DNA from: Filosporella fistucella | Lineage: Eukaryota; Ascomycota; Leotiomycetes; Helotiales | Direction of reading: 5' to 3' | Assembly (NCBI GenBank): GCA_030077755.1 | Contig: JAQJZZ010000010.1 | Coordinates: 4,898,001-4,962,000 of the forward strand | DNA length: 64,000 bases | In this document: piece by piece, positions 23,378 to 24,354 of the stretch | Layout: each line of letters begins with the position of its first letter | How positions within the stretch are numbered: the first letter of the stretch is position 1 | Position numbers and translations under genes: made by a program | Notes under the pieces: model-generated | Database searches by the model: none | What the model saw: only the letters and a program-made list of their open reading frames with translations | Told to the model about the DNA's origin: nothing

Positions 23378-24216
23378 ATGGCTCCTAAAGTAGCTATCGT
23401 TTTTGTAAGTAAACAATCTACCCCGCTACCCCTCTGTTCAAGCTTGTACAACCTCATTCCATAACAACAATACGACGCAACACTGTATTTGAAGTGGTGG
23501 CTAATGGTGTGAATAGTACTCCATGTACGGCCACATTGCCCAATTGGCCGAGGCAGAAAAGGCAGGTCTGGCCAAATCCGGAATCGAAGCAGACATCTAC
23601 CAAGTCGCCGAGACCCTCCCTGAAGAGGTCCTCGCAAAGGTTAGCCATTCCATCACACTCCTCCAACCAAACTCTAATTCTCTAGATGCACGCTCCACCC
23701 AAGAAAGACTACCCTGTCGTCGACGCCAAGACCCTCGAATCCTACGATGCGTTCCTATTCGGTATCCCAACCAGATACGGTAACTTCCCAGCTCAATGGA
23801 AGGCATTCTGGGATACTACCGGAGGCCAATGGGCAGCTGGTGCTTACTGGGGTAAATACGCTGGTACTTTCATCTCGACTGGTACGCTTGGTGGTGGACA
23901 GGAGAGCACTGTTATTGCAGCTATGAGCACCATGGCTCATCACGGTATCATCTACGTGCCTCTGGGATACAAGAATACCTTTGCCCAACTGGCGAATCTG
24001 AGTGAGGTACACGGTGGTTCTCCATGGGGAGCTGGAACTTTTGCTGTATGTTTCCTTCCTGCCCCTTTCCTCACCATCAATGTCAATAAGAATACATCCT
24101 AACAGACAAAACAGGCCGCAGACGGATCCCGCCAACCCACCCCCCTCGAACTCGAGCTTGCTACCCTCCAAGGCGAGCACTTCGGCAAGCAGATCTCCAA
24201 GGTCTCTTTCGCATGA
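23378..24216 (+). CDS. PST2: Flavodoxin-fold NAD(P)H:quinone oxidoreductase (WrbA/Pst2/Alt a 7 family), with likely stop-codon readthrough extension
   Basis: FMN enzyme making two-electron reduction of quinones, protecting against oxidative stress. Exons are 23378-23404, 23517-23639, 23686-24045 and 24115-24216, giving 203 residues to the first stop. The family length is about 200. The spliced N-terminus MAPKVAIVFYSMYGHIAQLAEAE has the FMN phosphate-binding loop. GIPTRYGNFPAQWKAFWDTTG and TGTLGGGQE are family signatures, as are HHGIIYVPLGY and the substrate loop GGSPWGAGTFA. The stop is TGA followed by CTA, and the same frame continues 45 codons to a TAG at 24352-24354, ending in CKCTIL (see separate feature). 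The symbol is by family resemblance to yeast Pst2/Ycp4; which paralogue is the true orthologue is not settled. Confidence 0.94.
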
Positions 24217-24354
24217 CTAGATGGCAGTGAGAAGCCTGCTGCTGCTGCGAGCGGAAAGGAGATCAAGGAGACTAAGGGTGCGGAGAACGGAGATACCCCT
24301 AAGGTGAAGGAGGAGAAAGATAGTGAAGGACTTTGTAAATGCACGATTTTGTAG
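24214..24354 (+). other. Candidate programmed readthrough extension (TGA-CTA) ending in a CaaX-like box
   Basis: Immediately after codon 203 the sequence reads TGA CTA G, the best-known eukaryotic leaky stop context. In the same frame there are 45 further sense codons and then TAG at 24352. The extension starts LDGSEKPAAAASGKEI, is rich in Lys/Glu/Ala, and ends GLCKCTIL. A Cys-x-x-Leu end is a geranylgeranylation-type CaaX box, and the extra Cys two residues upstream could be palmitoylated. The readthrough product would be 249 residues, about the size of yeast Ycp4. Splicing around the stop is unlikely: the only local GT...AG pair is 26 nt apart and leads straight into a TGA. Confidence 0.6.

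Follow-up and report, generated by a model that had tools for sequence, protein, structure and literature searches.

The window analysed here, a stretch of 64,000 nucleotides from Filosporella fistucella (host genome 45.8 Mb, 19 contigs), contains a four-exon gene whose features are collected in Table 1. The short form of its product has 203 amino acids and the C-terminus KVSFA-TGA. It is an NAD(P)H:quinone oxidoreductase of type IV (WrbA/Pst2/Alt a 7), scoring 213 bits against NF002999 (cut-off 141) and 207.7 against TIGR01755 (cut-off 132.5); among the domain profiles, FMN_red and Flavodoxin_1 were above their cut-offs and Flavodoxin_2 was below. The structure of S. cerevisiae Pst2 (PDB 5mp4) matches residues 3-199, so the known fold ends just short of the stop codon. 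Named relatives with core identities among the highest in the matches listed were Rhexocercosporidium (85%), Cadophora (84%) and Hymenoscyphus (82%), in keeping with the Leotiomycete source presumed in the earlier note. One locus of this family was detected in the genome, a count to be read as at least one. Adjoining open frames in the window at 11681-12712 (-), 19064-20737 (-) and 25178-25618 (-) by eye resemble, in that order, uroporphyrinogen decarboxylase, a MutS homologue and a repair helicase.

Table 1. Features of the quinone oxidoreductase gene, in window coordinates
Feature	Position	Strand	Basis
Exon 1 with start codon	23378-23404	+	spliced model; N-termini of homologues are MAPKVAIV
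Intron 1	23405-23516	+	donor GTAAGT, CTRAY branch site
Exon 2	23517-23639	+	spliced model
Intron 2, 46 nt (the shortest of the gene)	23640-23685	+	non-consensus donor GTTAGC, CTRAY branch site
Exon 3, core of the flavodoxin-like fold	23686-24045	+	spliced model; own-genome match
Intron 3	24046-24114	+	donor GTATGT, CTRAY branch site
Exon 4 through the first stop codon	24115-24216	+	spliced model
Leaky stop context TGA-CTA-G	24214-24220	+	sequence; UGA CU(A)(G) is a weak termination context in the available text of PMC4207609
Predicted readthrough extension, 45 sense codons, K/E/A-rich linker	24217-24351	+	open frame; coding-like codons; similar tails in 59 homologues
Upstream cysteine codon	24334-24336	+	aligns with the first C of the relatives' CGLPxKC; possible palmitoylation site
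CaaX box Cys-Thr-Ile-Leu	24340-24351	+	sequence; relatives end C-a-a-[L/Q/M/S]
Second stop codon TAG	24352-24354	+	spliced model

The first stop codon and the frame behind it

The earlier note described a quinone reductase of 203 residues that ends at a TGA followed by CTA-G, and the spliced model agrees with this to the base: the TGA occupies 24214-24216 and is followed by CTA GAT GGC. The note also claimed that this context is prone to readthrough, in keeping with PMC4207609, where the available text lists it as a weak termination context and reports that UGA CU is enough for efficient readthrough in Ustilago. According to the same text, higher levels of readthrough require downstream sequences, which often form structures. 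The RNA 3' of the stop had no unusual structure (z 0.02; 88 of 200 shuffles folded equally well), and set beside that requirement this counts against readthrough. Leakiness at this stop would thus depend on the short context.

Behind the stop the frame remains open and reads LDGSEKPAAAASGKEIKETKGAENGDTPKVKEEKDSEGLCKCTIL, with the terminus GLCKCTIL-TAG, which would bring the long form to 249 residues; the open stretch of 45 codons, its end and the resulting length are as the earlier note gave them. The note had described the composition of the extension as coding-like, and its codon usage is so too, with a mean score of 0.298 compared to 0.214 for the gene's own coding sequence. A score of 0.298 was reached by 0.8% of 3048 stop-free 45-codon stretches from other frames and places, a conservative comparison because this set may hold unrecognised exons, and by none of 5000 shuffles. 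No in-frame ATG is present within the extension, and re-initiation was rejected because it would be unable to yield the CaaX peptide. Sequencing error was also rejected, since the same short end is found in 106 homologues.

The frequency of such arrangements in the window was determined with CaaX-like ends defined as C-x-[VILMTAF]-[LMQSAFCN], at any position and on both strands, and with frames that leave the window excluded. Among 2471 TGA triplets, 312 have at least 45 open codons downstream, 16 have a CaaX-like end, and 3 have such an end together with at least 40 codons. TGACTA occurs 13 times, 3 of these with a downstream frame of at least 45 codons, and a single one, the stop of the quinone oxidoreductase, with a CaaX-like end. 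Under a Markov null with the flanking DNA taken as non-coding, at least 45 open codons plus a CaaX-like end has a probability of 7.9e-4, a figure in which the TGA-CTA context is not yet counted. This value agrees with the earlier assertion that a random UTR would seldom combine an open frame with a lipidation box. The downstream frames at the three further TTYGCNTGACTNGAY sites in the genome have 11, 2 and 2 codons.

Short and long forms among the homologues

Homologues were obtained by two protein searches (the best 120 of 6074 matches and the best 120 of 4811), which together provided 176 proteins; the second used a profile of the C-terminal halves of ten long forms and the window protein. 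A simple tail rule sorted these into 106 short forms, 59 long forms with CGLP..C-a-a-X and one other long tail (P0040), and the remaining 10 were either longer than 300 residues or had no landmark motif. The earlier note had expected homologues to keep the open frame and a terminal Cys-x-x-Leu. At the protein level this was borne out by the CaaX tail in 59 of the 176, a fraction that is not a natural frequency because the second profile was built from long forms and the window protein; the last residue is Leu in 29 of these tails and Gln, Met or Ser in the other 30 (Q 18, M 9, S 3). Last residues of this kind are the pattern of farnesyl and geranylgeranyl substrates. The box is the exact C-terminus in 57 of the 59, the exceptions being P0085 and P0123. 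The linker varies between long forms and the C-terminal end is kept. The commonest box of the relatives is CTIL (10 of 59), and the window box has the same Thr in its first a position.

The short end is well defined. The C-terminus lies 26-28 residues past DG[ST]R in all 106 short homologues (27 in the window short form), and 90 of the 106 have 202-204 amino acids. With all 106 C-termini inside a span of three residues, the short end must be old. Proteins P0001-P0006 and P0019, at 414-435 amino acids, have about twice the usual length; a second WrbA-like copy is visible behind the first in P0004, and among these double-length proteins P0001 is from Gymnopilus dilepis and P0005 from a protist transcript.

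The CaaX tail is shared across filamentous ascomycete homologues. Among the matches listed, long forms come from Botrytis, Sclerotinia, Lachnellula, Rutstroemia, Rhynchosporium and others in the Leotiomycetes, and also from Penicillium, Aspergillus, Paecilomyces, Pyrenophora, Alternaria, Phyllosticta, Teratosphaeria, Colletotrichum, Fusarium, Podospora and lichen fungi. The window tail was compared with 16 long-form tails picked by hand as Leotiomycete, and its mean score of 46.1 was reached by none of 2000 permutations, the best of which scored 40.75. However, one feature of the window tail counts against the readthrough reading. GLPx between the two cysteines is kept in 59 of 60 long-tailed homologues (one of them lacking x), whereas the window tail has Cys-Lys-Cys-a-a-X (24334-24351); judging from this comparison, the window species has lost these residues. 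In scans for DNA of relatives with a protein query, 80 loci of 226 relatives were kept in the genome contigs, all 80 bacterial by title and with 42-48% identity, and these are useless for tail comparison; in the viral contigs one stretch matched and no locus was kept. The degenerate pattern for GPCGLPxKC had one match, in a 436-kb viral contig, and with a preceding Glu codon it had no match among the genome contigs searched. A protein search with the tail only (P0085 region 198-262) had 7 candidates, and its sole match was P0085 itself.

Three of the 59 long forms, and only these, have Trp in the tail (P0085, P0123 and P0138). P0085 reads ...KVNFA-W-LDGSSS...CGLPSKCAVL-W-DIND... and is full length with no intron, and P0123 reads ...KVNFA-W-LAEGS...CGLPSKCTIL-W-K. 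In both of these, Trp takes the place of the short-form stop and again that of the final one. This suggests a TGA in an uninterrupted frame and translation with code 4; a code-4 reading of TGA at both Trp places is the simplest reading that the proteins allow. P0085 is probably a transcript that retained the stop, since it is full length without any intron, and P0123 is probably genomic because its first 31 residues fail to fit the protein. P0138 is ambiguous, having a single Trp before LDGS that could be TGG. L-D-G after the stop is common to the window, P0085 and P0138.

Other explanations for the tail

An ordinary 3' UTR could stay open and end in Cys-x-x-Leu by accident, and the number of long frames behind TGA triplets and TGACTA in the window speaks for this. 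However, the joint null is small even before the context is considered, the codons of the extension are coding-like, and the resemblance to Leotiomycete tails exceeds every permutation. An accident is already contradicted by the like tails in 59 relatives, and we regard it as highly improbable. It can also be proposed that the ancestor had only the long form and that the TGA truncated it in the window lineage, leaving the tail as a relic. The loss of GLPx from the window tail would fit such decay, and in some groups of fungi the tail may be encoded with no stop in front of it. However, the window frame remains open and coding-like with a proper CaaX end, and the short end is old across the fetched homologues, so decay is considered improbable. 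A-to-I editing of the mRNA could in principle change UGA to UGG at some stage, and the accessible part of PMC11156358 describes stop-loss editing among filamentous ascomycetes, for the most part in Sordariomycetes and in one Pezizomycete. The same source reports a strong preference for U at -1, where the window has G, and no editing genome-wide in the apothecia of Botrytis cinerea, a Leotiomycete. In addition, P0085 and P0123 have Trp at the final stop too, which argues for code-4 translation instead. Editing is therefore very unlikely to account for the long form.

The long form could also be produced by splicing, if a minor intron began at the GT within the final Val codon (AAG/GT), ended in the tail and so removed the UGA. 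We consider this unlikely but not negligible. The short-form end K-V-x-F is absent from 55 of the 59 long models, as real splicing would make it, many Leotiomycete models depart from the short form directly after K, and Val, hence GT, occupies the donor place in 98 of 105 short forms. However, the other 7 have Ile, Ala or Leu there, hence no GT. The sole GT of exon 4 before the stop is AAG/GTCTCT at 24202, and GTCTCT is a weak donor, though it should be noted that intron 2 of this gene itself has a non-consensus donor. A CTRAY branch site was found in none of the 12 frame-keeping candidate introns from 24202 (30-114 nt; GT-AG within exon 4 and tail), whereas all three introns of the model have one. 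Comparison of gene models also argues against splicing. Long and short models can be nearly the same protein in the core, with 99.0% identity between the long NCBI model P0039 and the short contig protein P0020 and 97.4% between the NCBI models P0030 (long) and P0057 (short), and the cut points vary and give unlike junctions within one genus (Penicillium, e.g. P0126 and P0133). In the only directly comparable case, the NCBI model P0024 and P0123 differ, where they overlap, by one residue and by 13 codons that the model lacks around the stop. This implies an intron of 39 nt, below the shortest of the window gene. P0085 is otherwise intron-free and the stop is still present. This suggests that the introns of the long models may have been placed by gene finders to evade the stop, although real splicing in some species is possible. 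Both readthrough and splicing are used by fungi for peroxisomal isoforms in the available text of PMC4207609, and the two could serve in different species here as well.

One gene with two predicted products

Readthrough of UGA-CUA-G that gives rise to a minor, CaaX-prenylated and membrane-bound isoform is the best explanation of these data and appears likely, in agreement with the interpretation given in the earlier note. We infer the readthrough, its frequency, the lipidation of the tail and the role of the anchored enzyme from sequence. In this model the majority of ribosomes would stop at the UGA (24214) and release the soluble, 203-residue Pst2/Alt a 7/WrbA-type enzyme. Because the context is a leaky one, a minority would insert an amino acid at the UGA and continue over the 45 codons, adding a charged linker that ends Cys-Lys-Cys-Thr-Ile-Leu. 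The cysteine of CTIL would then be prenylated. By the usual rule Leu in the last CaaX place leads to geranylgeranylation, so this is the lipid suggested for the window protein, and palmitoylation of the adjacent cysteine is possible. Anchored in this way, the long form would be located at membranes, where ubiquinone is. Profile searches found prenyltransferase domains of both subunit types in the genome, with PF00432 at three places, all above the cut-off, and PF01239 above it in 5 of 9 matches. Given these domains and the one family locus detected (a lower bound), the simplest account is that one gene supplies both soluble and anchored forms. Neither of the two GAPDH genes in this genome has TGA-CTA, and the PGK gene lacks it too (0 of 3), so the genome gave no positive control. 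The PGK gene (L089, G000:C7:1973150-1973899 and behind) ends ALSSK-TAA, followed by a 32-codon open frame ending HVVHS.

A broader proposal, put forward tentatively and with more doubt than confidence, is that in filamentous ascomycetes the UGA leakiness of one quinone reductase gene may determine how the enzyme is divided between a soluble and a lipid-anchored pool and so switch the antioxidant (ubiquinone-reducing) capacity of membranes, whereas Candida splits the two jobs between Pst and Ycp4 copies. If this is true, a conserved stop-codon switch would extend the readthrough principle to lipid anchoring and membrane redox defence, the Alt a 7 type allergen family would have an overlooked membrane form, and many database models of the family from filamentous fungi would carry artificial introns around a real stop.

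It is established that readthrough can expose PTS1 and other targeting signals. The window gene is like the peroxisomal readthrough isoforms of fungi and animals covered in the available text of PMC4207609 in being a cytosolic metabolic enzyme with UGA-CUA(-G) and a putative hidden C-terminal signal that is conserved across species at the protein level; it differs in that this signal would be a CaaX box for lipidation instead of a PTS1. The terms quinone, flavodoxin, prenyl and CaaX each had no occurrence in the main text of that paper as available. One Drosophila readthrough extension resembles the window case in having a predicted C-terminal prenylation signal (PMC3840789; named in PMC4973966, both in the parts accessible), but it concerns one prediction for an animal gene. 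According to the accessible text of PMC4359377, human readthrough extensions have been screened for features that included prenylation sites. The literature searched, which is thin in subscription journals, contained no description of readthrough in the quinone oxidoreductase family or of a conserved CaaX box exposed by readthrough, and the remark in the earlier note that no description of readthrough-controlled prenylation was known for this family holds within that literature.

Within the family, the Alt a 7 minor allergens and S. cerevisiae Pst2 are short-form homologues, and many matches are named minor allergen Alt a 7. Some of the records with this name are long models, and no readthrough form was found described in the literature searched. 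A related outcome in the Pezizomycotina is that of PaYIP3, for which recoding leads to short and long C-terminal forms that are kept in filamentous ascomycetes (PMC3777964, accessible part). However, PaYIP3 uses a programmed -1 frameshift and is a different protein. The flavodoxin-like proteins of Candida albicans have been detected as a family at the plasma membrane and protect against lipid peroxidation, a function suggested to proceed via ubiquinone reduction (PMC4556627, available text). Candida Ycp4 belongs to the same enzyme family as the window protein and has a C-terminal extension with a CAAX motif that is said to be likely lipid-modified. Unlike the long form predicted here, it is encoded by a separate gene, has about 90 extra residues and exists beside Pst1-3 (PMC4556627, available text).
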